From NCBI RefSeq assembly GCF_026914185.1, contig NC_070566.1, positions 6,758,001-6,822,000 of the forward strand: 64,000 nt of DNA. Direction: 5' to 3'. The number at the start of each line of letters is the position of its first letter. The stretch's first letter is position 1. Made by a program: the position numbers and the translations under genes. This stretch comes from Puccinia triticina. Its lineage: Eukaryota; Basidiomycota; Pucciniomycetes; Pucciniales; Pucciniaceae. The notes under the pieces were generated by a model, which saw only the letters and a list, made by a program, of their open reading frames with translations, had not been told where the DNA came from and made no database searches. Of the stretch, positions 1,195 to 60,410 are shown piece by piece.

Positions 1195-4100
1195 ATTTGA
1201 TACCCCCTAGTATTTCTTTGATGGTAGAAGTATTCTTATTGGTATCATAGGATTTTCTGATTTCATCCCAGAATTCTTCTTCCATTTCACATACATGTAG
1301 ACCAAGGATATCATAATTTTCTGAAGGAGCATCATATGCAGGATTATCTTCATCATTCTCAAGGGGAAATAAAGCCATGATTTTTGCAGCAACTTCTCCG
1401 TCCCATGCTGGGTTCTCTGGTAAATTTTCTAGAGACCATCTGCTAAGACCATCTGCATGTTTATGGATATTTTCAGCTCTGTGGATAATAGTCATGCTTC
1501 CTCTCCAGATTTGAATAGCAATTTGCCATCTAAGCATATGTCTATTGGGAGTTTTCATACCTAAGAGACTTTTAAGGGCTATACAATCAGTAATGACTTC
1601 AAAGTCACATCCATATAAGTAGTAATACAATTTTTCAAGTGCCCATACTAGACAAAGAAATTCTAGTTGGCTGGCTCCATATCTTTTTTCACTGTCTTTC
1701 AAGGTGCGTGAAATGTAGCATATGACTCCTTCTCTGGGGACTTCAAAATCCTGTATCTGATGTAATGCAGCGCCTAAACCTTCCATGCTGGCATCTACAT
1801 ATAATCTGTAAGGTTTATGGGGATCAGGCATGAACAGTATTGGTGCTGATGTAAGTTTTTCTCTCATTACATTAAAAGCTTCTACTCTAGTACTTGTCAT
1901 CTCAAATACAGTGTTGGGACTACTGAGTTGATAAAGTGGGCCACTTATTTTTGCAAAATCCTTAATATGTTGTCTATAGTAACTTGCAAAACCTAAGAAT
2001 GACTTTACTTCCTTCAGGTTAGTTGGCATAGGTTTGAGCAAAACAGCTGCTGCTTTATTCATGTCTATAGCTATACTGAGTCCTGATACTATATGTCCTA
2101 GAGCTTTAAGTTCTTGAAATCCAAATTGGCATTTACTCATTGATATTTTCATCATCATTTTAATTACTCTTTCTAAGACTATGGTCAACTTCTTGAGGTG
2201 TTCTTCCCAGTCTTGGCTGAATATGATAATGTCATCAATGTAAATTATCAGCCATCCCTCACGTAATTCTCTGTGGAATTCAGTATCCATCATTCTTTAG
2301 AAGTGAGATGGTGCATTTTTAATTCCAAAGGGCATTCTGAGATATTCATAAATACCCATATGTAATATAATGCGCAACAAATGTCTACTGTCTTCATGAA
2401 TTACATTTTGGTGGAATCCTTTTAGTACATCCATATCACCAGGAAAAAAAAAAGTCACTTGATGGCAAGTGACATGATGCAGCTTTGGTTTCTGCTCCAG
2501 AGCTACTCCAGCGCTGCTCCAAGTCTGCTCCACCAGCACTTGTAGAGCTTGCAGGACTGCACCAGAGCACTCAATGTGGCACAGTCAGCTGATCCTAATT
2601 TTTTCCCAGGAACAGCTGATGCTCATCATAAGTTGAGCAGTAGGCATTGACTGAGCCTGGGCCAAAGCTGAGCATTGGCTGAGCCTGGGCCACAGCTGAG
2701 CATTGGATATTCCAAGCCTGAAACAATTCCAAGTGTCAGCTGGACCAAGAATATTCCAAATCTGAGCATCAGCTTAGCCAACAATGGTCCAAAGCTGAGC
2801 ATCATCTTGGAAAAGGCTTGTGCAGAGCTTAGGATCAGCTGCGACAATACTGTTCCAAAGATTAACACCAGCTGGGCCAAAAATTTTCAAAAGCTGAGCA
2901 TCGGCTGAGCCAATGCTGGTACAAAGCTGAGCATTGGCTGAGCCAAGGCTGTTCCAAAGCTGAGTATCAGATTTTTTGAGACTATTCAAAAGATTAATAT
3001 CACCTGAGGCAAGGCTGTTCCACAGCTGAGCATCAGCTGAGCCAAGGTTGGCCCACAGCTGAGCATCAGCTGAGCCAAGGCTGGCCCACAGCTGAGCATC
3101 AGCTGAGCCAAGGCTGGTCCACAGCTGAGCATCAGCTGAGCCAAGGCTGGTCCACAGCTGAGCATTGTCTTAGCCAAGGTTGGTCCACAGCTGATCATCA
3201 GCTGAGCCAAGGCTGGTCCACAGATGAGCATAAGCTGTTACAGGAGTGGTCAGACTCAGAATCTGAGCATTGGCTGGGCCAAGATTTATCCAAAGCTGAA
3301 AATCAGCTGAGCCAATACTGGTCCAAAGCTGAGCATTGGCTGGGCCAATGATAGTCCTAATCTGAGTCTAAGCTGAGCCATGACTGGAATAAAGCTGAAA
3401 ATAAGCTGGGCCAGGACTGGTTCTGATCTGAGCAACAAAGCTGAGCATGAGCTGGGCACCAAAGCTGAGCATAAGCTGGGAGCTAAAGCTGAGTATCAGC
3501 TGACCAGAAATGGGGATCAGTGCTGCCCAGCAAAAACTGAGGATCTTCTGTGGAAATTATTAAACTGGTTAGATGGTGGGTAGATGGTGGGTAGATGATG
3601 GGTAGATGGTGGTTAGATGGTGGGTAGCCCGCTGGAGCTGGCATGATGTCACTTGTCATCAAGTGACTATTTTTTTTTCCTGGTGTGCAGGTAATAAATT
3701 TTGCATTCTTGAGTTGCGTGATTGCTTCACTAATCTTGGGCATAGGATATCTATCAGGAATAGTGTAGGTATTGAGGGCTCTAAAATCACCAACCATCCT
3801 GGACTTATCATTATGCCACGCAATGATTACAGGTGTTGTAACTTCCACATTCTCATTTGCGCCAACCTTGTGCAGAACTTTCATTCTAACTAATTCATTT
3901 ACATGTTGTTGCAAGGCTTCTCTGCTTCTAGGGGATGCTGGGTAGGAGGCTTTTCTCAAAGCTGGTGGATAAGTTCTGGAAGTATTATGATTGATTCTTA
4001 CTTCATGTCTTTGAATACATCCAAAGGGTTCATCAGCTGTAGCAAAGGCCAATTTATGTTTATGCAGTAATGAAACTAATTTGTCTGTTTGTTCTGGTGT

Positions 4101-7746: not shown

Positions 7747-8974
7747 CACCAGGAAAAAAAAATAGTCACTTGATGACAAGTGACATCATGCCAGCTCCAG
7801 CAGGCTACCCACCATCTACCCACCATCTACCCATCATCTACCCACCATCTAACCAGTTTAAGAATTTCCACAGGAGATCCTCAGTTTTTGCTGGGCACCA
7901 CTGATCCCCATTTCTGGTCAGCTGACACTCAGCTTTAGCTCCCAGCTTATGCTCAGCTTTGGTGCCCAGCTCATGCTCAGCTTTGTTGACCAGATCAGAA
8001 CCAGTACTGGCCCAGCTTATTTTCAGCTTTATTCCAGTCATGGCTCAGCTTAGACTCAGATTAGGACTATCATTGGCCCAGCCAATGCTCAGCTTTGGAC
8101 CAGTATTGGCTCAGCTGATTTTCAGCTTTGGATAAATCTCGGCCCAGCCAATACTCAAATTCTGAGTCTGACCACTCCTGTAACAGCTCATGCTCATCTG
8201 TGGACCAGCCTTGGCTCAGCTGATGCTCAGCTGTGGACCAACCTTGGCTAAGAAAATGCTCAGCTGTGGACCAGCCTTGGCTCAGCTGATGCTCAGCTGT
8301 GGACCAGCCTTGGCTCAGCTGATGCTCAGCTGATGCTCAGCTGATGCTCAGCTGTGGACCAGCCTTGGCTCAGCTGATGCTCAGCTGTGGAACAGCCTTG
8401 GCTCAGGGGATATTAATCTTTTGAATAGTCTCAAAAAATCTGATACTCAGCTTTGGAACAGCCTTGGCTCAGCCAATGCTCAGCTTTGTACCAGCATTGG
8501 CTCAGCCGATGCTCAGCTTTTGAAAATTTTTGGCCCAGCTGGTGTTAATCTTTGGAACAGTGTTGTACCAGCTGATCCTAAGCTCTGCACAAGCCTTTTC
8601 CAAGATGATGCTCAGCTTTGGACCATTGTTGGCTAAGCTGATGCTCAGATTTGGAATATTCTTGGTCCAGCTGACACTTGGAATTGTTTCAGGCTTGGAA
8701 TATCCAATGCTCAGCTGTGGCCCAGGCTCAGCCAATGCTCAGCTTTGGCCCAGGCTCAGTCAATGCCTACTGCTCAGCTTATGATGAGCATCAGCTGTTC
8801 CTGGGAAAAAATTAGGATCAGCTGACTGTGCCACATTGAGTGCTCTGGTGCAGTCCTGCAAGCTCTACAAGTGCTGGTGGAGCAGACTTGGAGCAGCGCT
8901 GGAGTAGCTCTGGAGCAGAAACCAAAGCTGCATCATGTCACTTGCCATCAAGTGACTATTTTTTTTTCCTGGTG
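7747..8974 (+). mobile_element. hairpin-ended tandem-repeat element, copy 2
   Basis: This has the same CACCAGG...CCTGGTG ends, subterminal GTCACTTG/CAAGTGAC hairpins, and CAGCTGATGCTCAG-type tandem units as copy 1 at 2437-3685, in the opposite orientation. The GATGGTGGGTA array is present in reverse near 7806-7856. The copies differ mainly in the number of central units. Flanks are TATGAT on the left and GATGCAG on the right, so the target duplication is unresolved. It sits inside Helitron H3 and interrupts a decaying minus-strand ORF. Confidence 0.75.
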
Positions 8975-13002: not shown

Positions 13003-13955
13003 TCATCAAGCTTCTTATCCATACTCTCCAATTTATTCAAAATGACAGTGAAGGCATCATCTTCTGAATTTACCTGCTCATCTACACGCTGTGTAACTTT
13101 GTGGCACAATTTCTTAAGATCTGAAGACAATTCTTTGTTACTTTGCGTAATTCTTTCTACAACAAAGTTAAGATTTTCTGTGTACATATGTAAAGCAGTT
13201 CTGAAGGGATTATCTGGATTGTTAACAACATTTGGAATATCTGGGACATTTGATGCGTGTTCAGAACCAGAGTTACTATTACTACTAAAGAAATGGGAGC
13301 TATTTAAGGATCTAGGTCCATCTGACGCTCCTGGCGGGCTATTTTGCCTTGCTCCAGATGTTGATAAGTGCCTTGGAGGGATCTGCCCAGGCGTATCATT
13401 TCTTCGTAAATTTGACTGCGCCATTGTTGATTGCGCCCAGTATTCCGCGGGTGTCTGGAATTCACATTTCTCCCCCTGCGTGATTGGGGTCTTGAAGCTG
13501 GTCTGCGGCGCTGGGGGCTTCTTAATGGAGAGTGGTTTCGTCTGCGGGACGGCTGGTGGATTAGGAGAGAGTCTGAGCTGATCTCCATTGGATTCCAATC
13601 TTTTGTCCTCTTCAAGGTGGTTGTTAAACCTTTGAGGTCTATCATCGCCTGGAAATCCGCCCGGCAATACTTGAGATGTGCTATTATTGCCGCGTGACTG
13701 CTGCGGTTGCGCACGTCCTTGAGCCACATCTTGTAACCTTTCATCCTGTAATAGTAGCGCTTGAAATTCTCTTCCGTCGAGACTATTAGCAGAAGATGTA
13801 TTTTTAGTTTTTCCTTTCTTTGTAGCATAAATAATTCTTTCTGCTACAGGTTGTTTAGCAGGTGGTAGAACTGACGCAGGTGGAAATCCTCTGCCTGGGT
13901 CTGATGTACGGGTTCTTCCATTATAACCTCGAGTTCTGAGAGAAGGAGGAGACAT
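13003..13955 (-). pseudogene. element A gag N-terminal part
   Basis: The minus-strand frame opens with ATG at 13953-13955 (M-S-P-P-S-L-R) and runs about 317 codons to the solo LTR. The first 230 residues are Pro/Ser/Arg-rich and look disordered; the last part is helical and leads into the coiled coil at 11861-12148. The start codon lies inside a predicted intron (13936-14025). The region from 13304 to 13935 is also read in another frame (ORFX). Confidence 0.65.
13304..13935 (-). pseudogene. element A ORFX, overlapping gag in the +2 frame
   Basis: From the predicted splice acceptor at 13936 the frame offset by 2 from gag reads to a stop at 13304 with only one internal stop (TAG at 13844-13846). 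It holds a helical segment ending in D-W-N-P (near 13590-13640), an Arg/Ser/Pro-rich middle, and a C-terminal helix with Y-E-E-M-I-R and Q-G-T-Y-Q-H-L-E (near 13345-13400). The same order of motifs occurs in elements C, D and E in the equivalent frame. Function is unknown. The TAG makes this copy defective. Confidence 0.55.
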
Positions 13956-32021: not shown

Positions 32022-32806
32022 CACTGCCAGAAAAACTCTAGAAACTGCTTGCAGTTGAGATGCAAGAGCTCCAACCAAACCCCTGCTCAAGCTCAACCCA
32101 AGCACTGGTTTTTGTGCTCAGGGGTTTCAAGTGGTGGCACATCCTGATTGAGAACTAAGGCAACTCAACGCCTGTGCGGCCCTGTGCACCATGACTCAGA
32201 ATGCTCATCCCTCTGCTAAGGATAAGCCAGCCTCCCTCGCAAAACCTCGATGACAGGCATTCTTCCTGGCCAACAAAGGCTACACAATCTGGATGTCCAT
32301 GAGGCACTCCAGGGCACTCCTCCTGGCCGCAAGAGTTGGCACACAATGGCCAGCAGCACATAACGGCTGTCAAACAACGTAGGCTGGTGACGCGATGGCC
32401 AATACATATTGGCCATCAAATCAAGCCAGCTCCACCTGATGGCGTTTGTACAGACCAGCCTCACGCGATGGGCGGCACATACAGCAAGGCCAGGAAAGCT
32501 TGCGGGTCCGGCAGCCTGAAAATCAACCAAACAACTTTGTTGATTTCAGCCACCGGACCTGTATGCCCTTCCAAACATTCCAACTCTTCCACCTTCTTCC
32601 ACCTCCGTCCCCCCCAATCGCCCCCCCCCCCTCCAACAAACATGCCCCCCGACCCATTTCCCCCTCCCCGCCCGACCGGACCCACTCACCATCCACCCAC
32701 CCACAATCCTGCCAGCCAGCCAGCCACCCGCCAAACCAAAAAAAAAAAACCGCTACCGGTGAGCAGGCCATTCCACTCCGCCGCCCCCATTCTCACCCAT
32801 CCACAG
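32022..32806 (+). repeat. left long terminal inverted repeat of the Tc1/mariner-type transposon
   Basis: This pairs with 37283-38064. It contains a C-rich tract (near 32610-32720) with CCAGCCAGCCAG repeats. ORFs within it on either strand recur mirrored in the right TIR and are not separate genes. Confidence 0.85.
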
Positions 32807-33129
32807 CTGACCCCTCCTTCCCCCTGCACCCATCCTTTGCCCGGCATCCAGACCCGCACAAGGCCTTCCAGCTGAGCAACTTTTCCGCCGGTGAGCAGCC
32901 CCAACCATCCATGCCAGCCTTCCCCCCCCCCATTCATCCAGCTGACCTTGTTCCCCCTGTGTCCTTTTCCCGGATTCCAGATCCGCACAAGCCCTTATAC
33001 TGCTCCGCCGACAAGTCCAAGGACACCGCAGCCACTCAATCCCATCCCGCTAACGGTGAGCCCTGTTTTTTTTTGGGCCCTTGCTTCATGCTCCCCCCAC
33101 TCACCAATTTTTTCCCTTGGGTAGGCCCG

Positions 33130-34261
33130 ATGGTCTTTGTGAAGTACTCACGCGACGTCAAGGTAATTGTCGTCAAAATGGCCGTGCGAGGACAGACCCT
33201 CGCCGAGATCAATCGGACCCTTGACCACAAGGTGTCCAAAGACTCCCTCCTCCGGTGGAAAAATCTGTACCGACACACCCGCGATGTTGTCCGAGACCCG
33301 GCACTGTACGCCAAGCGGGGTCGCCCTTTGGCCTTCAGCCGCGAGGAGGCCGAGTTTGTGCTCGCTGCGCTGGAGGCAGAGCCAACCCTGTACCTGGATG
33401 AGATCCAGAATCACATCCAGGCAATGACCGGCACCCAACATCCCCTCAGCACGATCCAAGCCAAGTTGAAGTTCCGCCTCCTCATGACAAAGAAAACTGC
33501 CCGCACGGTCAACCCAAACCAATGCCCAGATGCTCGGGCAAACTACATTGCCCGCGTCGGTAATTACCCGGTGGAATTCCTGGTATTTGTCGGTAAGCAA
33601 GACTTGCGGGAACTTTCTGTCTGCATTTGCGCTGTTACTAACCCATTGATTGGCCCCCAGACAAAGCTGGAGTATCGCTAGGAACTCACTCACGGGACAA
33701 GGCTTGGGCCCTCCGCAGATGCCGCACTCAACGCATCCCTAAGCCCCTGGGGGCCCCTCGCGTCTCGGTTCTCCCGGCCGTGTCGTTGGACGGGTGTCTT
33801 GAGTGCATTGCTCAGGTAGGAACAATGCGCCGCATTGACATGGAGTATTTTCTCGAGGATGTTTTGGTAAGATCTCCGGTCTGGTCCCATTGGTGCGAGT
33901 AAGATGTAATTGATTTGGTCTGCGTTATATCGTTTCCTAGATTCCAGTGATGAATCCTTTCCCCGGCCGAAACAGTGTCCTCATCATGGACAACGCCCCC
34001 ATCCACCATGGGGGTCAAATTGCGGAAATATGTGCGGACGCTGGTGTCCTTCTGCTGTATTTGCCGACATATTCACCCGACTTCAACCCTATTGAAAAGG
34101 TTTTCGCGACCCTCAAAACCTACCTGAAGCGCCTCGAAATACTCACTGGGACCCGACAGGATGCTCGGATCATCAAGGAGGTGCTCCCCAATGTAGCAAA
34201 TCCTCGGATGATGAGGAACCTATTCCTCGGGAGTGGCTACTCGGCAGGAATGATGTTCTGA
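33130..34261 (+). CDS. DDE transposase of the IS630/Tc1 type
   Basis: Exons 33130-33592, 33661-33866 and 33941-34261 join to exactly 330 codons including the stop (329 aa). Introns are 68 and 74 nt, GT-AG. The N-terminal half has helix-turn-helix-like sequence (T-L-A-E-I-N-R-T-L and P-L-S-T-I-Q-A-K-L). The catalytic triad is visible as F-V-D-K-A-G (formed across the first splice), I-M-D-N-A-P-I-H-H, and Y-S-P-D-F-N-P-I-E-K-V, the spacing usual for DDE_3 transposases. I chose the ATG at 33130 because it follows non-coding TIR-proximal sequence; the frame is open further upstream, but that part is low-complexity. No lesion is seen, so the element may be autonomous. Confidence 0.85.
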
Positions 34262-39823: not shown

Positions 39824-40264
39824 TTGTTTGCACCACTCTTTGGCTTTTGTTCGTACGGTTTCGAGCCCGATGCTTTCGGGTTGGAGCGGTCGACCTTTGG
39901 GATCTTGTAAGGTTTCTTTTTCTCGTTCTTGTTGTTTACCTTTGTATCCTTCTTGTTGTTTTGAGGACCTTGATGTGTTTGCGCTCCGTGTACGGGTTCC
40001 ATCCGTCCAAGTGTTTCGTCAGTATCTCCTTCCACAGAAGGAATTTCTGTACTACCCGGAACGACGATATCACTTGCTTGAGATACGTTTTGAGTAAGTC
40101 CATCTCGTCGTAGTTCTTGGCGTTCAGGTAGGCCGCCTTCGTTGCTTTGAAGATCGCTATCGCGTCTTCCTGCGCTTTGTTGAGGACTAGGGCCAAGGGA
40201 TGTTAGTATGGAGTCTTCAACGTTAGTGTACTTAGACGGCGTATCTACTAACCTCAAGGGGGTT
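39760..40264 (-). pseudogene. element C ORFX region (ORFX and gag N-terminus overlapping)
   Basis: Two frames carry protein-like sequence here. One (about 39936-40196) has a helical segment ending in D-G-W-N-P like the ORFX core of A, D and E. After a frame shift, the frame ending at 39760 has K-W-K-E-T-L-K-M-A-R-V-L-M, matching the C-terminal ORFX helix. The other frame of the upper part (P-L-R-L-V-D-T-P-S-K-Y) is the disordered gag N-terminus. A single 1-nt indel between 39830 and 40000 would reconcile both with the +2 relation seen in the other elements. Additional stops upstream mean this copy is decayed. Confidence 0.5.
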
Positions 40265-47800: not shown

Positions 47801-48631
47801 AATATTAGTGAATTAATTCGAAATGTCTTTACAATGAGTGTTAAATTTATCATTGGAATGATGGATTGACTTAGTTATAGGAGTGAGAAGTTCATTATGA
47901 AAAGTTTTCAAAGAAGAGATTAATTCGGTCTGAATAAAAGGACGAAGATTTCCCAACACTAGCTTGCTATTATCGTCGACTATATCTTTGATCTGAGTAA
48001 AGAGGAGAGAGAACACTTTCTTAGCGTCTCTAATGGTGAGAGGGCCTAATTCCCTCGTCGAGATCGGGAAGACCCCTCCAGATGTTGATACGCTCCCTGG
48101 ATAGTGCGCGACATCCTGAATATTTCCGCGTACATCTTGTTGCGATGGTTCGGACGTCCTCCCATCCTTCCGTGTCCCGGAGGAGGATCGGCTGGGTTTC
48201 TCGGAGCTTGATTCCTCTGGGCTGTCTGGTTTGCTGCTCGAGGAGCGTTGTCTCTGTTGTAAGGATGTGCTCGCGGTTGATTTGAGTTCTGAGGAGCTTG
48301 AGCTCGATGAATGGAATAAGGATTCCAGCCTTCCATCAAAAGCAGGAGAGGCTCTCGGCCTATCACCTCCTCCAGGATGCGGTGAGACCCCATCGCTTGC
48401 CGTCGCAGCACCTCCATCGCCCGAGTATTCCCTCCCGAAACTGCTTGGAGGTACTGTGCTTTGCACTGTTGATGACTCTGGAATATGTACTCCGCTTCCG
48501 GAGGCCAATTTCGCCTTTGGAGCCTTACTTGTTCCTCGCTTAAATTCCCCTGGTGGGACCAGTGGGGGGTGGGCGGATCTAGTAGAAGAAGCCCGAGAAA
48601 AGGTATCAGAATTCTCTGATTTGTTAGGCAT
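44890..48631 (-). pseudogene. element D gag, protease and RT (5' part of gag-pol)
   Basis: The frame opens at ATG 48629-48631 (inside a predicted intron) and runs on the minus strand to the insertion at 44889, broken once by TAA at 47813-47815. It holds a disordered N-terminus overlapping ORFX, a coiled coil (about 47800-47300), gag core near 46930 (W-P-K-F-S-G-Q-G-E-Y-D-H), CCHC knuckle near 46325, protease L-F-D-S-G-A near 46120 and RT with Y-I-D-D near 45105. Motifs are intact. Confidence 0.85.
48046..48578 (-). CDS. element D ORFX, overlapping gag in the +2 frame
   Basis: From a predicted acceptor (ACTAG, exon starting 48578) this frame is open for about 177 codons to 48046 without a stop, wholly inside gag. 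It has a helical N-terminal part (L-S-E-E-Q-V-R-L-Q-R-R), a core with N-T-R-A-M-E-V-L-R-R-Q-A and V-I-G-R ending in G-W-N-P (near 48325-48420), an Asn/Arg/Pro-rich middle, and a C-terminal helix M-Y-A-E-I-F-R-M with Q-G-A-Y-Q-H-L-E (near 48080-48140). E matches the core (N-T-x-x-M-x-x-L-x-x-Q-A, then V-G-R and W-I-P). Function unknown. Confidence 0.6.
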
Positions 48632-48656
48632 AATTCTTTGAAAGTTTTTAGCTAAC

Positions 48657-50891: not shown

Positions 50892-51861
50892 TGTGAGCCT
50901 GAGTCTCTATAGTGACAGCAGGACACAAGAAATGGGGGGGCAATAGTTGGATTTCTTGGGATAAAGAAATTACAACTATAAAAGAAAAAAAGAGAAAGAG
51001 AGAGAGAAACCAAGCAGGATAAGAAGGAAGAGAAGTACTAGGTTATTCTAGTGGGAATGCACGTCCACTGGCAATGCTACTCTTCAGAAGAGTGCTGCTA
51101 ATCTGTGCAAGAAGTGCTACAGCTTCCTCTCAGGAGGGTATCTGGATTAGATAAGTCTTAATCCAGCCACAGTTTTTTAGACTTCTCTCTGGACAGTCAA
51201 GGTTCTTAGAGGGAAACCTGAGGGACAGCCCTGAACCTAGATTTTGAGGCAAAGACCTGATGATAAGAAGGGACAGCCCTGTAATCAAGATGGAGGCAAA
51301 GGCCTATAGTTTTGGAGGGACAGCCCTGTGATCAAGGAGGAAGCAAAGCAAGAAGAAGAGGCAGATCAAGCAAGACACAGAGTTGTACCTCTGAGATAAT
51401 CAAGGTTCAGTGAAAGAGGTTACTTACTGTCAATATCCTAGGCGCCTGTGACGGTAGGTATACTGGGAGTAGAGTAGGCTCTTTGGTGGTGATCCTGGGG
51501 TTATCTGGGTGGTGGTTCTGGTGTGCTGAAGTCTGTAGATCCGCCTCAGGCAAGGGGGATCCTGACTACGAAAATTTTCACAGTTTGCTTATGTAATTTA
51601 CATATGTACATGTGGTTTGGCGCGCCTGGTAGCGCTGACACGTCACAACTGCGCAAGGGCGCCATAACTCAGTAACTCAGGGAAGGAGTATAGTTACAAG
51701 GAATTGATAAGTTGTAACTAGGGTTAAAATTGCATGAGGAAACAGAATATGAAGTCAAAACAAGGTTATCTCTTAAGATGAAAAAGATATAAAGTAATTT
51801 ATATGTAACAAAGGTAGAACAGGCAGCTTTTAGGTCAGCTGTGATGACTCTAAGGCTGACA
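50892..51861 (-). mobile_element. 3' LTR of element E
   Basis: 970 bp, TGTGAGCC to CTGACA. The adjacent internal sequence on the minus strand, AACCCTTTTGGTGGTAGGGA, is purine-rich and fits a polypurine tract. The sequence matches the 5' LTR throughout by eye. Confidence 0.93.
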
Positions 51862-51898
51862 TTCCCTACCACCAAAAGGGTTGGATTTCTGTAAGAAA

Positions 51899-54800
51899 TT
51901 AAACCACAGGGTTAGACCTCTTCTCACTTCTGAATTTCCTGAGAAGGATAGCAGAGTCTGGGATGTCTTTCTCAAGGAGCCATTCATCATGATCAGCACT
52001 CATACCTTTGTATCTAGCTAAGTACATCATAACATCTCTGTTTTCCACTCTCAATCTCTTGTCTCTGAGAATCTTTTGTATGACTTTACTCTGAGGGGTC
52101 TTATCCATGGGGGGAATGACAACTTTGACTTTCTGTCTCAAAGGGAACTTGTCTGGATTGGGGTCTTTGTATGGTTTCACCAAGCTGACAGGAAATGTGG
52201 GATGTTTCCTGCTAAACTCTTCAGTCAGTATCACTTCTACAGCATTCTTCCCATGTAAAGCTTTTACAAGGAATGGTCCAGTGAAGGAGTCTCTCATCTT
52301 CTTAGGGCCAGACAGGTTGTTGAAGTTTGCTGTGGATATTAGGACTTTATCACCAACTTTAAAAGATGGTTCTTTGTGACTCTTGTCCCATCTCTCTTTG
52401 TTGTAAGATGTAGCTTCTGTTATGCATTGCTCAGCATGTTTTCTAGCTTTCTCAAAGATCTTTCCATAGGCAAGAGCAGTAGGATGAATGTCTACAGAGT
52501 CTTGCTTCAAGAAATTCCTGGGAAGGTTTGGGATCCAGCCTTTTTCCAGGATGGCAGGAGGTTTTCCAGTGGTTGAATGTATGCTGGTGCAATATGCTAG
52601 CTCAAGGATTGGTAGAAGTGAAACCCAATCATGAGTGTAACCATCATTGTCTTTGAATTCTAGACCATATGCACAAAACCTCCTGATCATATCTTCAAGT
52701 GTTTGAATCATCCTTTCAGCTAATCCATCAGTTTGAGGGTGGTAAGCAGTGGAGAAAGAGAGTTTTGTTCCTAACATACTATGTAAACCAGTCCAGAATT
52801 CAGATGTGAACTTAGGGTCTCTATCAGAGATGATGATTCTGGGGATGCCAGTCCTAGGCATTACTCTGTTCCAAAACAGAATGGCAGTGTCCATGGCAGA
52901 GTCATCCTTGAAGCAGGGTACAAATATAGGGGTCTTAGAGTATCTGTCCACTATTACCAGACAAGCATTGAAACTAGCAGCTCCTCCAGGGGACAAGGAA
53001 GTTACCCAATCCATGTTAATAACATCCCATGGTTTTGAAGGTTCCTCAATTTTCATGAGCAGTCCAAATCTTTTGCCTGTGGCTTTATTTGCTTTCTGGC
53101 ATCTATCACAGGAAGAGCAGTATTCACTAGTGTCTTGTCTCCAGTTATCCCACCAAGCAGTATCAGCTACTTTTTCTAAAGTCCTATCTTCAGAAAGATG
53201 ACCAGAGTAGACACTGTCATGGCATTCATGCAAGATGGTGTTGATACTTTCTTTGTCAGCTAGGACTAGGACAGAGTTGTGTTTCTCTCTGAAGTAGATG
53301 AGGCCATCAAATATAGAGAATCTTCCTTCATCATATAGCTTTCTCCAAGGATCTTGTAAGGAATTTTTTAGCTGGGCATCTTTAGCATCTTTCAACAAAA
53401 GTTCAGACAATATGGTAGTGTTCTTGTCCTGCTTGTAGCCTTCTCTCACTGAGTCAAAGAACTCATTCTTGAAAGTAGAGACATGTATGCCCATGATGGG
53501 GAATCTATCATCATCCTTGTCTTCTGGGTCATAAGCAGGGTTACTAGGATCATTTGGTAAAGCCCACCTGCTCAGTCCATCAGCATTCTTGTGAATATTC
53601 CCATCTCTGTGGATTATGGTCATATTGCCTCTGTATTCCTGAATAGCAATCTGCCACCTGAGCATATGTCTGTTGGGAGTCTTCATGTTCAGCAGTGATC
53701 TCAAAGCTGTGCAGTCTGTTACAACATGAAAGACACTGCCATCTAAGTAGTAATGGAGTTTTTCCAGGGCCCAAACCAGACATAAGCATTCAAGTTGACT
53801 AGCACCATATCTTGTTTCACTGTCCTTCAGTTGTCTGGATATGAAAACAATGGGTCCTTCTTTTCTCACTCCCTCAATGACTTGGACTTGATGTAAAGCA
53901 GCACCTAGACCAGTCATGCTAGCATCTACATATAGTGTGAAAGGATGGGCCCAGTCAGGAAACAGTAGCAATGGAGCTGTGGTCAGTTTCTCTTTTAACA
54001 AGTTGTAGGCTACTATTCTATGATGAGTCATCTCATATATGACATCAATCCTTGTCAGTTCAGTCAGAGGTTTTGCTATCTCTGCAAACTTCTCAATGTG
54101 TTGTCTGTAGTAACCAGCAAAACCAAGAAATGATTGCATTTCTTTCCTACTACTAGGCACAGGCTTTTGGAGGACAGCAGCTACTTTATTCTGGTCTATT
54201 CCTATGGCAATACCAGACACAAGATGGCCTAGAGCTTTGATCTGATCAAATCCAAAGTTACACTTCTTCAAGGAGATTTTCATGTTCATGTTAATGACAA
54301 CTTTCAGGATCCTGTCTATCCTACTGAGGTGTTCCTCCCAGGTGTTTGACATAATGATGATATCATCAATGTAGATAATGACCCACTTCTCATCAATTTC
54401 CTTTCTGAATTCAATGTCCATCATTCTCTGGAAATGAGAGGGGGCATTTTTGATCCCAAAGGGCATTCTCAGGTACTCATAGATTCCTTTGTGCATGATA
54501 ATCCTGAGTAGATGTCTGGAATCTTCTGCAATGACATTCTGGTGAAAACCTTTGAGTACATCCATGCTAGTCAGATATTTAGCTTTGGCCAGGTTGTTCA
54601 GAGTCTCACAGATCTTAGGAATGGGGTATCTGTCTGAAGCAGTGTAGGAATTCAAAGCTCTGAAGTCTCCTACCATTCTGGACTTTCCATTGTGCCAGGC
54701 AATGATTACAGGAGTAGTGATCTCAACTACTTCATTATGACCAACTTTCCTTAGAACATTCAGGTTTACTAGCTCTTCAATGTGTTGCTCAAGAGCTTCT

Positions 54801-57800
54801 CTGCTTTTAGGGCTGGCAGGATAAGGAGGTCTTCTGAGGAGAGGAGGATAGGGTCTCTCAGTTGTCAGCTTGATATGAACTTCATGACCTTTAATGGCAC
54901 CAAGGGGCTGGTTGGTGTTGGAGAAGGCAAAGTTGTTATTGTAGAGGACTTCAAACAGCTTCTCTTTTTGCTCAATAGTCAACTTATCACTGAACTTGGC
55001 TTCACAGAGTTCTTCTATAATAAATTTCTGCAGTTGAGGATGGGACTTCTTTACAGCAGAAATTTCATTGGAAGGGCTCATTTTCTCCAGATGATGAGAC
55101 TTAAAGCTGAATTTCTTCCTCTTGTTCTCATTCCCAATGGTAAAGAATCTCTCTTTGCTGTTTGTGATGTCAAAGCCATAAAGAGACATGTAATCATTTC
55201 CAAGGATAAGATAGTTAATTCTTGCATTTCTCATGACTACAAATTCTGCTAGAATTCTAATGGAACCTTTAGTGTGAGGAAAAATCAAAGCCATTTCTAT
55301 TATGCCCATGGGCTGTAATTGGTCACTACAGCTGTGGAATTTAGCATGGTTAATTGGCATGAGCTTATTTTCCCATTCTGGTAATATAGAATCTAGCAAT
55401 TTGTTGCTGATGATTGAGCAAGAGGCTCCACTATCAAGAAGACATGATTGTTCTCTGGATTCAATGAGGACAGTAGTAAGATTTGCTTTTCCAGTAAGAT
55501 GAGCTTTTCCTCTATCAGGCTTACATTTCATCAGTCTAGCATCTTCTATGTGGGAAGACTGACAGGATTTGTCCCAGGTCTGAGGTTGATGAGTTTCAGC
55601 TTGAATTTCAGCAATGGAGAAATCTTGGCTTATTTCACACTCTACAGCATGTGCTCCAAAGTCAAAATCAACTAATGGATCATAATTGGCACCATTTCCA
55701 TTGTCCATGGCAAGAATCATGTGATTGGTTCTATGATTCTCTTCTTCTTCATCTAGTTCTGATTCAGATTTATGTGGTTCACCTTGATCTTCTCCATTGT
55801 CACTCTTGGGATCATCATCATCATCCATTCCTACATTATTGATCCTGTTCTTCTTCTTAGGGCATTCTCTGGAGAAGTGGCCAGTTTGTTTACAGAAATG
55901 GCATATAAGTTTTTCTTTCTCAGGGGCAGAGACAGGATTCTTTTTGGTAGAGGAGTCAGTTGGCTTATCAGTTTTCTCAGGGGCAGGATTGCTTCTCCAT
56001 TGGGATCTGTTTGGAGTGTTATAATTGTTTGTCACAGGCTTGTTCCTTTTCATGACTCTGTCTATAACCTCTTCAGCAATTATAACCATATCCTCAAAAC
56101 TCATTTCAGTGGCATCTCTTTTGTATCTGCTTTTAATAGCATGCTCAAGGTTTGGAGGGCACTGCTTTAAGATTTTCTCACAAATAAGATACTGATTGAG
56201 TTCAGGTTGATAAGCTTTCAGTCTTTCTCTCTGATTACCAAACCATTTGTGGATTTTCCTCCCATCATAGGTGAAGTGATCATTCTCAAACTCTTGTTGC
56301 ATTTTCCATTTCCAGTTCTCAGTGCCAAACTTATTTCTGATGGCATTCTTCCACCAAGCCCAAGATTTGTTTCCATATTCATCTCTAATGCCTAGGTACC
56401 AATTCCTTGCAGTGTCAGTTAACAAGATTGTTAATCTACTGATTATCATGTTATCCAGCATCAAGTAGTCTCTGACTAGGATATCAGTATTTTTAATCCA
56501 AAGCTCATGATTGTAAGGCAATTCTCCAGAGAATTTCTCCCAGTCTCCATTTTTGGGGATACTTTTCCACAGTTCTTTCCTCATTTCAAAGTCTATTGCT
56601 CCATGATCAATGTAGGGGAATTCCTCTTGGGTCTTAGCGTCAGGAGTATTGCTAGCAGGTTTAGGAAAGCTATCTCTTGGTGGTCTCTGGGGTTCAGGAG
56701 TAGGAACAGGAGGAGGTGGTCTGTGTTCATGTTGTTGCTCATGGTGGACATTCTGGAAGGGATTATTGTATAAGAGATGAGGGGGATGGTCTCTGTCATC
56801 TGGTATTAACACTGAATCCAGCTTTGAGCTCACAGTGTTTACTACAGAAGATATGTCACTGAATCTTCTCTTAGATTGTTCAAATCTGTTGTGCTCATTG
56901 GCATGAAGGTCATTGATCTGATTACCAATGGAAGTAAGATTGTTGCTCACTTTCTCTTCAAAATCTTTCAGATTTTGGCCAATTGTATCCATGTTAGAAT
57001 GACATTGTGATTCATTTACCAGAATCAAATCTTGAACAGTCTCAAACTTATCATCTATGTGTTTCTTCAGTTGTTCTAACACATTGTTATTCACTGTGGA
57101 CTTCTCTCTGGCACTTTCACCTATGTTGTTCAGGATTTGATCAAGCAAAAAGGGAATGAATTCATTTTTAAACAGATCAAGAATGGAATGATTCAGGACA
57201 TCTTTAAAATTGCTGACACAAGATTCAAGAAGAGTACCAGGGATGGTTTCAACAGTACCAGATAATTCAGAGAGAAATTTAGAGAACAAGACTTGTAATT
57301 TTTCTTCTAGAAACAAAGGACCATTTCGAGACATTTCAGAGTTAAGATTATTTAGAAAAAATTCTCTATTTGAAGGATCAGAGAGGTTATCAATATCTAA
57401 ACTGAGGCCTAGAGGTGAATCACTGCTTAAGGAACTTTTAGGCAAGGATTCATCTAATAGGGGCCTCTCCCTCTGGTTCTCCCGCGTCCATAGCCTCTCC
57501 TCACTCCTCTGGTGGCTCTCATCAAGTATTCTCCTATTTCCAGAACTCTCTGAGTGTCGTCCTGAGGGCGTCTCCAGTTCCTCCCTGATCCTCTCCAGTT
57601 GCTTTGAGGATGAGAGGGGTTGTGGCCTGCGAATTCTTGCGGCATTTGAGGATAATGGGGTGGATTGTAGCCGCCAGTTTGAAGATGCGGGCTGGGGCGG
57701 AATAATTGAACTACCTCCCGCGGTATAGAAGCTGGTGGCGGCCTCACTTGGAGCGTCTGCGGCGGTGGCGGCGGCGGCAAGGGAGTTCCTTGATAGTGTT

Positions 57801-58678
57801 GGCTCTCTAGGCGCGGCTGGGATTGAGGCTGCTGTTGAAACTGAGCCTGGTTGGAGGGGATAGGACCCTGGAACTCCTGCGCTATAGCTCGTAGCTGAGA
57901 GCCCGTGGGTTCTGGCGTTGGCGTCGCTAGAATGGGTTGCTGGCTGGCGTGCGGCACTAAAGCTAGCTGCGAATGAGGCCGGGATACTTGCGCCGTGGAG
58001 TTCTGCGGACCTAGGCCGTTGTTCCGGTTCATTAGAGAAACTTCCAGGTTGTGTAGCTCGTCTCTGGGTATCCATTCTTGACAGAGACGGATACCGTCTT
58101 TCCTCCCAACTAATTCTATTATCATTTCCTGCGTCATAGCTGCTTGGGAGAGGAGGCGCCTCATGGTTAACGTGTTCTGCGCCTCCCTGGCGCGGACAAA
58201 TAGGTCGAACTGTTCGTTGAACATGCTGATGAGGCTGGAGAGCTCTTCCTCTTCCGGGATAAGGTCCATGGGACCGGAGGACTCCTCCCGTCGAGGGCTC
58301 TGAGTGTACGGAAGGAGGGCTAGATTGGGCGGCGCCGTGGATCTCATGCCCTCTGGGTTGATAGGCTGGGAGGGCGGTTGACTCGTCGGAGGAAGGTTCA
58401 CCGTCAAGTCTATCTGTTCCCTGTCGATAGGCCGCGGAACCGGCGTGGATCTGCTCGACGCTAGGGCTATGGAAGTTTCCCTCGGCTGGTATAGGGCCGG
58501 AGGGATCCCGGTATCTGGGGGGAGCGGCTCCTCTTCCGGGAGCTTGAGGAAATCCTCCTGTAGAGGCGGCAAGGCTGCTTCTAGCCCTTCGAAGCCGTTC
58601 TTCGGCGGCTGGGCTAAGGCGGTACCGGTGGCGGAGCTCTTCGGAGAGGTCTCGGCCATTTCTAAGGTGAGGAGGCAT
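51899..58678 (-). CDS. element E Gag-Pol polyprotein
   Basis: 2259 codons without interruption. Residues 1-400 are disordered and overlap ORFX in another frame; a gag core lies around 700-850 ([12 protein letters not shown]); CCHC knuckle near 930 (C-x2-C-x4-H-x4-C); aspartyl protease L-L-D-S-G-A near 1080; RT with Y-I-D-D near 1435; RNase H near 1580-1700; integrase HHCC finger near 1820-1860 and D, D, E near 1890, 1950 and 1987; chromodomain-like C-terminus near 2195-2250. Every residue I can check is canonical. The first ATG (58676-58678) lies inside a predicted intron, so Gag-Pol would come from unspliced RNA; an internal Met near residue 449 is an alternative start. Confidence 0.93.
57454..58661 (-). 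CDS. element E ORFX, 401-codon ORF overlapping gag in the +2 frame
   Basis: This frame has ATG at 58657-58659 in good context (G at -3, G at +4) and runs 401 codons to a stop at 57454, entirely inside gag. It has an N-terminal Pro-rich part, a helical core ([12 protein letters not shown], then L-V-G-R and E-W-I-P, near 58055-58200), a long Pro/Gln-rich linker with six consecutive prolines, and a C-terminal R-G/R-Y-rich tail after a short helix (near 57500-57550). A predicted splice (58751-58662, 90 nt, GTATTT...TTAG) joins ORF1 to it in frame through G|AA-ATG. Nucleic-acid binding is suggested by the RG tail only. It could alternatively be translated by leaky scanning. Confidence 0.65.
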
Positions 58679-58751
58679 GATGATTATATGTAAGAAAAGA
58701 GGGTAATTAAGCGGTAAAAAGGAGGATTAAGGGTTGTTTAAAGTTAAATAC

Positions 58752-59184
58752 CTGAAGATCTGGATTTAGCGGAAATCCTTTTGCTTTTCCTAGTAGTAGA
58801 AGACGATTTTTTCTTGTTTTCTTTTGCGCTTGGCTTCGCAGAGGAATTAGAGGTCCACTCGGCTATGTTAACAGGAGCTACGGTCCTTTTTCGACGAGTT
58901 TTCGGCGCTTTTGCGGTAGCAATAGGAGTCCACGCGGTGCTACTAATCAAATTTCCGTTACAAGGATTTGCTACTATTTTGTCGTCGTAGTTTTCTTCGT
59001 CTGCGCTATTCTGCGCCGTCAAGAATTTTTTTACGGTCAACTGCGGTAATTGTAGATGAGAAGCAGGAGAATCTTTTGAGCGTACTCCGTTTTTCTCTAT
59101 CTCCTCTTGATTCGAAGATATAGAGAGTTCTGGGGAGGATAAGTCCGACGAAGGGGTGAATAGCGGCACGGAGGAGTCGCAATT
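58752..59184 (-). CDS. element E ORF1 exon, basic
   Basis: Open frame of about 144 codons on the minus strand between an acceptor (GTGCAG, 59185) and a phase-1 donor (TCAG|GTATTT, 58752/58751). The N-terminal half is Ser/Asp-rich; the C-terminal half is strongly basic with clusters such as K-T-R-R-K-R and R-K-S-K-R, which resemble nuclear localisation signals. It has no internal ATG near its start, so an upstream exon is implied. If read without splicing it stops after S-S-G-I. Confidence 0.5.
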
Positions 59185-59440
59185 CTGCACTTTCACGAGT
59201 ACACCAGACGTAAAAAAATTTTTTCAAGGGTTCAGTTAGGAAATTTATCAATATAAAAGCAATTTTAGATAATTTTGGGAGAATTTCAGCGTTAGTAGGA
59301 TATGTAGAAAAAAATTTTTAAGTGGTTTTTTCGAATTTTAAGAGTTTTTTGTTTGATTTAGTCAGGATGATCAGTCCTTTGGCTTTATAGCAGTCTAGAA
59401 TTATGAAAAGGTGAGTAATTTTCCCGATGAGGCCCCCAAT

Positions 59441-60410
59441 TGTGAGCCTGAGTCTCTATAGTGACAGCAGGACACAAGAAATGGGGGGGCAATAGTTGGA
59501 TTTCTTGGGATAAAGAAATTACAACTATAAAAGAAAAAAAGAGAAAGAGAGAGAGAAACCAAGCAGGATAAGAAGGAAGAGAAGTACTAGGTTATTCTAG
59601 TGGGAATGCACGTCCACTGGCAATGCTACTCTTCAGAAGAGTGCTGCTAATCTGTGCAAGAAGTGCTACAGCTTCCTCTCAGGAGGGTATCTGGATTAGA
59701 TAAGTCTTAATCCAGCCACAGTTTTTTAGACTTCTCTCTGGACAGTCAAGGTTCTTAGAGGGAAACCTGAGGGACAGCCCTGAACCTAGATTTTGAGGCA
59801 AAGACCTGATGATAAGAAGGGACAGCCCTGTAATCAAGATGGAGGCAAAGGCCTATAGTTTTGGAGGGACAGCCCTGTGATCAAGGAGGAAGCAAAGCAA
59901 GAAGAAGAGGCAGATCAAGCAAGACACAGAGTTGTACCTCTGAGATAATCAAGGTTCAGTGAAAGAGGTTACTTACTGTCAATATCCTAGGCGCCTGTGA
60001 CGGTAGGTATACTGGGAGTAGAGTAGGCTCTTTGGTGGTGATCCTGGGGTTATCTGGGTGGTGGTTCTGGTGTGCTGAAGTCTGTAGATCCGCCTCAGGC
60101 AAGGGGGATCCTGACTACGAAAATTTTCACAGTTTGCTTATGTAATTTACATATGTACATGTGGTTTGGCGCGCCTGGTAGCGCTGACACGTCACAACTG
60201 CGCAAGGGCGCCATAACTCAGTAACTCAGGGAAGGAGTATAGTTACAAGGAATTGATAAGTTGTAACTAGGGTTAAAATTGCATGAGGAAACAGAATATG
60301 AAGTCAAAACAAGGTTATCTCTTAAGATGAAAAAGATATAAAGTAATTTATATGTAACAAAGGTAGAACAGGCAGCTTTTAGGTCAGCTGTGATGACTCT
60401 AAGGCTGACA
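59441..60410 (-). mobile_element. 5' LTR of element E and primer-binding site
   Basis: Same sequence as 50892-51861. Immediately left, CCCGATGAGGCCCCCAAT (59423-59440) on the minus strand reads ATTGGGGGCCTCATCGGG, the PBS. C and D share GATGAGGCCCCCA in the same place. Confidence 0.93.

Follow-up and report, generated by a model that had tools for sequence, protein, structure and literature searches.

Organization of element E and its overlapping reading frames

The window analysed here is a stretch of 64,000 nucleotides (nt) of the Puccinia triticina genome (contig NC_070566.1, positions 6,758,001 to 6,822,000 of the forward strand). It contains a minus-strand retrotransposon, element E, spanning 50892-60410, whose gag region overlaps a second open reading frame (ORF), designated ORFX or X. 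The two long terminal repeats (LTRs) of E are 970 bp each with 0 mismatches between the 5' and 3' copies, and the element is flanked by the 5-bp target duplication CCGAT. Between the LTRs a single frame encodes gag and pol, with the pol domains RVT_1 (1330-1485 of the frame), RT_RNaseH (1576-1682), Integrase_H2C2 (1808-1865) and rve (1881-1981). By its LTRs, its target duplication and the order reverse transcriptase, RNase H and integrase within one pol, E is a Ty3/gypsy LTR retrotransposon, as proposed in a first-pass annotation of the stretch made by a model from the sequence. The chromovirus label given there is plausible and weakly backed, as the chromodomain PF00385 scores 17.7 bits in E (E=0.0035), under the 25.1-bit cut-off, and 21.0 bits in a related element at 28 kb. 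The gag segment past the overlap with X (56402-57457, minus strand) has weak Pfam matches only, the best being SKA1 (E=0.0036), and looks coiled-coil-like.

ORFX has 401 codons and falls entirely within the first 409 codons of gag-pol, as annotated, its start lying 19 nt past the gag ATG. It had been assigned to the +2 frame; the off-frame position is correct, and counting from the gag ATG the frame is +1, which is perhaps a matter of naming. Directly upstream, another frame, ORF1, runs to a GT donor at 58751 (CAG/GT), and removal of the sequence from there to the acceptor end at 58662 (TTAG) fuses ORF1 to X in frame. Coordinates are collected in Table 1. We consider it very probable that X is the second exon of a splice-switched accessory gene overlapping gag in these Ty3-type elements. 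This core proposal of the first-pass annotation is upheld by selection on X, by exact loss of the intron in some copies and by recurrence of the layout in diverged elements.

Table 1. Features of element E and of related elements in the window
Feature	Coordinates	Strand	Basis
5' LTR of E (TG...CA)	59441..60410	-	CCGAT target duplication adjoining; 970 bp, 0 mismatches vs 3' LTR
3' LTR of E	50892..51861	-	LTR pair comparison
Stretch without any ATG start, from inside the 5' LTR to the gag start	58679..60151	-	last ATG before gag at 60152
ORF1 tail, ATG-less basic exon joining X	58752..58992	-	third-position excess begins about here
Predicted intron of E, 90 nt, phase 1, GTATTT...CCTTAG, containing the gag start codon	58662..58751	-	precisely absent in L017 and L024; indel-rich interior
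gag-pol of E, single open frame, 2259 codons	51899..58678	-	ATG 58678 within the intron
ORFX, 401 codons, probable exon 2 of the spliced RNA, +1 frame in gag	57454..58659	-	copies, codon-position bias
Element D, predicted intron, 78 nt, gag ATG 48631 inside	48579..48656	-	layout read from sequence
Element D, predicted X exon	48046..48578	-	genome matches, codon pattern, AlphaFold2 helical hairpin
13-kb element, X relative overlapping gag (gag ATG 13955)	13304..13843	-	D-type profile E=3.3e-12; own copies
38-40-kb element, shortened or decayed X relative	39939..40202	-	D-type profile E=3.9e-6

Purifying selection on the frame overlapping gag

Copies were sought in the host's own genome (122.8 Mb, 18 contigs), where at least 105 matches to the E-type X were found at 56-100% identity (103 of 246 candidates scored). 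Among the matches listed, 68 of the 83 that are near full length contain no stop. Forty-four copies were fetched, and 42 of them entered the count of X stops and codon positions against E, L026 and L048 being omitted because X does not start at the expected place. An internal stop is absent from X in 34 of these 42, while the third frame holds 17-33 stops in every one of the 44. Further comparisons used hand-picked spreads of the fetched copies, with 22 for the splice region, 12 for the leader, 11 for the dN-type estimates, 16 arranged in eight pairs and 13 for the gap count.

It is hardly credible that X is open by chance alone, through the codon bias of gag. When the gag protein was held fixed and its own synonymous codons were shuffled, X remained open in 14 of 2000 simulations, so the openness of X in one copy is not overwhelming, a point that counts for chance. 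X was open in 0/2000 when the codons were drawn by downstream gag usage, and with X held fixed gag was open in 0/2000. Because of these fixed-protein simulations both overlapping frames are taken as real, and the genomic copies make the case against chance decisive. Codon position 3 of X is position 1 of gag, and most differences from E fall there (27, 31 and 91 at X positions 1, 2 and 3 in L040; 59, 58 and 127 in L049; 121, 110 and 209 in L051). Summed over the eight pairs, which share no copy, the counts are 184, 253 and 544 (p=8e-46, sites treated as independent). Such a pattern is opposite to that expected from gag alone and refutes a chance ORF; the presence of homologous X frames in diverged elements speaks against it as well.

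In ten comparisons each, dNN/dNS for X is 0.10-0.50, dNN/dSN for gag within the overlap is 0.22-1.36, and the ratio of nonsynonymous to synonymous change (dN/dS) for gag past the end of X is 0.00-0.17, with position 3 dominant. Codon-position bias tracks X as far as the overlap reaches and gag beyond it, and X is under purifying selection. Changes silent in X and altering gag accumulate at rates of 0.02-0.32, against 0.04-0.22 for synonymous change in downstream gag, and are lower in 5 comparisons and higher in 5, so the Gag N-terminus appears to be kept open with a sequence that is nearly free. Gap runs in X are rare (1.1 per 100 nt), and 11 of 13 are multiples of three, which gag also requires. 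Divergence between L040 and E is sharply uneven along the element: within the overlap it is 0.228 at gag position 1 (X position 3), and at downstream gag third positions 0.075, which suggests recombination or template switching between subfamilies.

A predicted intron carrying the gag start codon

The phase-1 GT donor, the 90-nt intron ending in TTAG and the in-frame joint had all been predicted from E, and two genomic copies, L017 and L024, lack precisely this intron. Identity of the rest of the fetched stretch to E, including leader and LTR, is 99.2-99.5% for L017 and 90.9-97.9% for L024. The closest kin of the two copies retain the intron in two differing sequences (L015/L020 and L019/L025), so L017 and L024 look like two events in different subfamilies. 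L024 has 0/967 differences between its LTRs and a CAGAT target duplication; L017 has 1/970, and its flanks match over 3 bp only. Given the exact loss of the intron, together with the identical LTRs and 5-bp duplication of L024, spliced RNA was most likely reverse-transcribed, on the simplest view on two occasions. This genomic footprint indicates that the predicted intron is excised in vivo.

Among the matches listed, a long open frame common to the ORF1 tail and X occurs only at L017 and L024 (596 and 501 codons). The exact junction pattern has 16 matches in the genome, and of the 12 for which sequence further upstream was inspected, only these two are intron-less: L043 and L044 keep an intron with a TCAG acceptor, and of eight further matches seven keep an intron with a TCAG-like acceptor and one, L071, is unrelated. 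The other four matches, of the GGCCAAAAC type, lie outside the 12, and other junction letters would escape the pattern. In the intron-bearing aligned copies, judged by eye, the donor GT is present in 19/20, the acceptor AG in 20/20 and the gag ATG in 20/20. The intron interior is rich in indels, with 11.2 gap runs per 100 nt as compared to 1.1 in X and 1.9 in the ORF1 tail.

The ORF1 tail and the leader

ORF1 had been taken to extend from 59184, and only about 58992-58752 looks coding. The signal, an excess of third-position differences, is confined to the last ~70-80 codons before the donor; the first half (about 59184-59000) has none and carries stops or frameshifts in several copies that are otherwise good, and the whole of ORF1 as a coding unit was rejected. 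The last 79 amino acids (aa) of ORF1 have at least 150 matches in the genome (150 of 168 candidates scored), 136 of them without a stop, and the tail is basic, with a charge of +13.7 over 80 aa.

The leader is poor in ATG. Under a first-order Markov model of 58679-60152 the expected number of ATG is 13.9, and 0/2000 simulations were free of ATG as is the stretch listed in Table 1. Between -1400 and -20 before X, 12 aligned copies contain no ATG in five cases, one or two in six and 13 in L041, the 5' part of which differs from the other copies. An ATG in the LTR of E, at -1555 before X, was considered as the start of the fusion and rejected, its position not being common to all subfamilies.

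A donor-like GTAAGT lies in U5 at 59971-59976 (GACA/GTAAGT). Of 12 aligned copies, 9 have GACAGTAAGT in U5, L043 has GTAATT and L051 GTTAGT, and the motif is absent in L041. A further upstream intron, with this GTAAGT as candidate first donor of a longer leader intron, or alternatively a non-AUG start, is possible. An exact pattern search for a joint between the U5 GTAAGT and a site ahead of the ORF1 tail found none. This carries little weight, since RNA spliced in that way is without the primer site and a single mismatch would have hidden the joint from the search.

Diverged elements with the same layout

The first-pass annotation had seen the same arrangement in elements lettered A, D and, in decayed form, C. 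These letters cannot be mapped with certainty; X is found at 48.0-48.6 kb, in the element taken here as D, and relatives of X at 13.3-13.8 and 39.9-40.2 kb. Apart from E, D and these two places, profile searches of the stop-to-stop frames of at least 30 aa in the window gave no X at E<=0.1. The D-type X has at least 98 genome matches (150 of 218 candidates scored), and among those listed 27 of the 48 spanning at least 140 aa are without a stop. Stops in old D-type copies are mostly TGA, a pattern expected if CGA decays by C-to-T change. The 13-kb type has 52 genome matches (88 of 88 candidates scored), and its search matched D-type places down to E 2.9e-7.

Five D copies compared with D differ at X positions 1, 2 and 3 by 0, 0, 0; 3, 3, 15; 23, 29, 65; 21, 31, 57; and 24, 32, 60, and at the ORF1 tail positions by 1, 0, 0; 2, 2, 6; 17, 11, 28; 17, 11, 33; and 17, 11, 33. 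ORF1 is conserved in the D copies examined and is Met-less where the homologous frame is open. In 15/15 diverged D-type copies, inspected by eye, a GTYWGT donor, the gag ATG and an AG acceptor precede X in that order; these copies were chosen among rows without a listed stop and so show layout, not intactness. The layout of donor, gag ATG within the intron, acceptor and X is conserved across very diverged elements.

The X proteins of the E, D, 13-kb and 38-kb types look related. A profile of 19 D-type X proteins matches the 13-kb X with P 2.4e-12 and the 38-kb X with 2.6e-5, and it matches the E-type X over 48 columns with P 2.2e-5 (HH probability 76%).

These elements also bear on whether X is translated from unspliced RNA through leaky scanning, in which ribosomes would pass over the gag AUG that stands 19 nt ahead of X and the intron would be incidental. 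In E-type copies the AUGs of gag and X are close together in contexts judged usable, which would suit such a mechanism, but the two copies with exact intron loss indicate use of the splice, and the ORF1 tail, which is in frame with X only once spliced, is itself under coding constraint. Leaky scanning cannot serve the D-type, as no AUG precedes the helical core of X in 6/6 D copies. Given the intron-less copies and the AUG-less D-type X, it was set aside as a general mechanism, and we regard it as very improbable.

Predicted features of the X proteins

A basic N-terminus, a helical middle and an RG-rich C-terminus had been predicted for the protein of E. The basic N-terminus and the RG-rich C-terminus are present, the last 31 aa of the E fusion having a charge of +6.8, and the helical middle is predicted with confidence only in the D-type relative. 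An AlphaFold2 model of the D-type X, made from four window sequences, is a helical hairpin with a predicted local distance difference test (pLDDT) score of 90-95 over about residues 31-90; its C-terminal helix is of low confidence and the mean over the whole chain is 65.8. The model of the E-type X alone (mean pLDDT 49.9) is too poor for use. Two single-protein queries against IMG/VR found no relatives outside the genome.

Several observations weigh against an accessory gene expressed through splicing. ORF1 of E contains no ATG, contrary to the start codon assumed in the first-pass annotation, and no start codon was found for the ORF1-X fusion; only 1 of the 4 gap runs in the aligned ORF1 tail is a multiple of three. 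Nearly all copies keep the intron, the donor GT is lost in L034 and the gag ATG in L045, and no clean 5-bp target duplication was seen at L017. Among D-type elements an exact pattern for one D-type junction revealed no intron-less copy, and the 13-kb element carries an in-frame stop in the interval from its acceptor-like site to X, just ahead of the latter. The link between E and D consists of the 48-column profile match and the equal position and layout, a four-sequence D profile having given only P=0.002, and profile comparison of E with the 13-kb (0.13) and 38-kb (0.69) types alone was not significant. The D-type X has no fold match at E<=0.001, searches of Pfam and the PDB gave no notable sequence match to X, and no match of either sort points to a function.

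Proposed expression and function

In the mechanism that we propose, the full-length RNA would have a long, ATG-poor leader followed by a small intron holding the gag start codon. RNA retaining the intron would be both genome and Gag-Pol messenger. Removal of the intron would take away the gag start and fuse the ORF1 tail in frame to X, and the product made from the spliced RNA would consist of a basic arm and a helical core, followed in E by an RG-rich tail. Its translation might begin at a non-AUG codon; in the E-type the AUG of X itself, which would be the first AUG after the leader once the RNA is spliced, may also start a protein.

HIV-1 (human immunodeficiency virus 1) Rev and regulators of the Rex type are made from spliced RNA and combine a basic arm with a helical hairpin, while the unspliced RNA serves as genome and Gag-Pol messenger. 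X resembles Rev in its basic arm and, as predicted for the D-type, in its helical hairpin, and the likeness is limited to these features and the RNA layout; Rev does not overlap gag, whereas X does. Among plant Ty3 elements, Ogre and Retand have additional ORFs, and Ogre has an intron; these ORFs lie beside gag-pol, unlike X, which is off-frame within gag.

The closest described analogue is CERV of the Cer1 element of Caenorhabditis elegans, which, in the available part of its report, is a nuclear protein made from spliced RNA and required for export of the unspliced RNA (PMC10309623). The same part of the report gives it a candidate nuclear localization signal, KRKK, a predicted helix-hairpin-helix domain and five exons, of which exons 1-3 are in the gag frame and exon 4 in another (PMC10309623). 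As far as that account goes, X is like CERV in being a probable accessory product of a spliced LTR-element RNA (here by genomic footprint), read off the gag frame as part of CERV is, of an element whose gag-pol has no stop between gag and pol, and in having a basic arm and, in the D-type only, a predicted helical hairpin. It is unlike CERV in sharing no frame with Gag and in that the spliced RNA would lose the gag start, the two being compared by layout and not by sequence; export is demonstrated for CERV and is a proposal for X.

By analogy with CERV for Cer1 and Rev for HIV, X might act in the nucleus on the RNA of its own element, promoting the export or sparing of unspliced genomic RNA; we offer this tentatively, as a role that is possible but falls short of an even chance. 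With the same reserve, fungal Ty3 elements may carry their own nuclear regulator of the Rev/CERV type, switched by excision of a tiny intron that deletes the gag start; X would then be the constrained frame of the overlap, with the N-terminal part of Gag overprinted on it and nearly free to change.

A different role would be that of a brake, X controlling copy number or acting as a dominant negative on retrotransposition and not as a helper. An RNA spliced to X no longer has its gag start, which sets the output of X against that of Gag-Pol as a brake would have it, and self-limitation is known for Ty1, whose p22, as far as the available part of the report describes it, is likewise a second product of the gag region (PMC4599808). 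The p22 protein regulates its element as an inhibitor in that account (PMC4599808), but X is not a Gag fragment, and its being conserved across many families, old as well as young, agrees better with a helper that the element requires; we think a brake unlikely. Comparably unlikely, in our estimate, is a role within the particle, where X would be a structural or RNA-binding partner co-packaged with Gag and not a nuclear regulator. The basic, RG-rich ends could bind RNA, and the helical hairpin modelled with confidence in the D-type X would suit such a partner, but regulatory genes are classically expressed in the way seen here, from a spliced RNA that cannot give Gag. The lack of a notable fold or family match for X also counts against such a role, as weak evidence.

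Splicing also yields a second messenger in BARE of barley, a single-ORF LTR retrotransposon (PMC3735527). Unlike that of X, the spliced BARE RNA encodes Gag only and no new protein, according to the available part of the report (PMC3735527). Among the papers listed by literature searches for such a gene in rust or other fungal elements, or for spliced second products of LTR elements, none describes it in fungi, as judged by titles and the openings of abstracts. Since CERV of Cer1 is a described analogue outside fungi, the kind is not wholly new.

Annotation that allows one frame per locus easily overlooks a gene hidden, like X, in mobile elements of an abundant family. X would show that the LTR retrotransposons of fungi, commonly depicted with gag-pol alone, can possess an accessory protein and a splice switch like that of retroviruses. 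A single genome holds about a hundred natural copies of this long overlapping gene pair, and intron loss in the genome offers a way of reading splicing without RNA. Should X prove to export unspliced RNA, its likeness to Rev and CERV would be an independent parallel, and a regulator of that type would bring early and late regulation like that of complex retroviruses to fungal retrotransposons.

Other features of the window

Two inverted segments, at 2437-3685 and 7747-8974, are 96% alike, each with tandem-like repeats. A plus-strand frame at 32446-33681 has a terminal stretch resembling what we take to be the helix-turn-helix start of a transposase.
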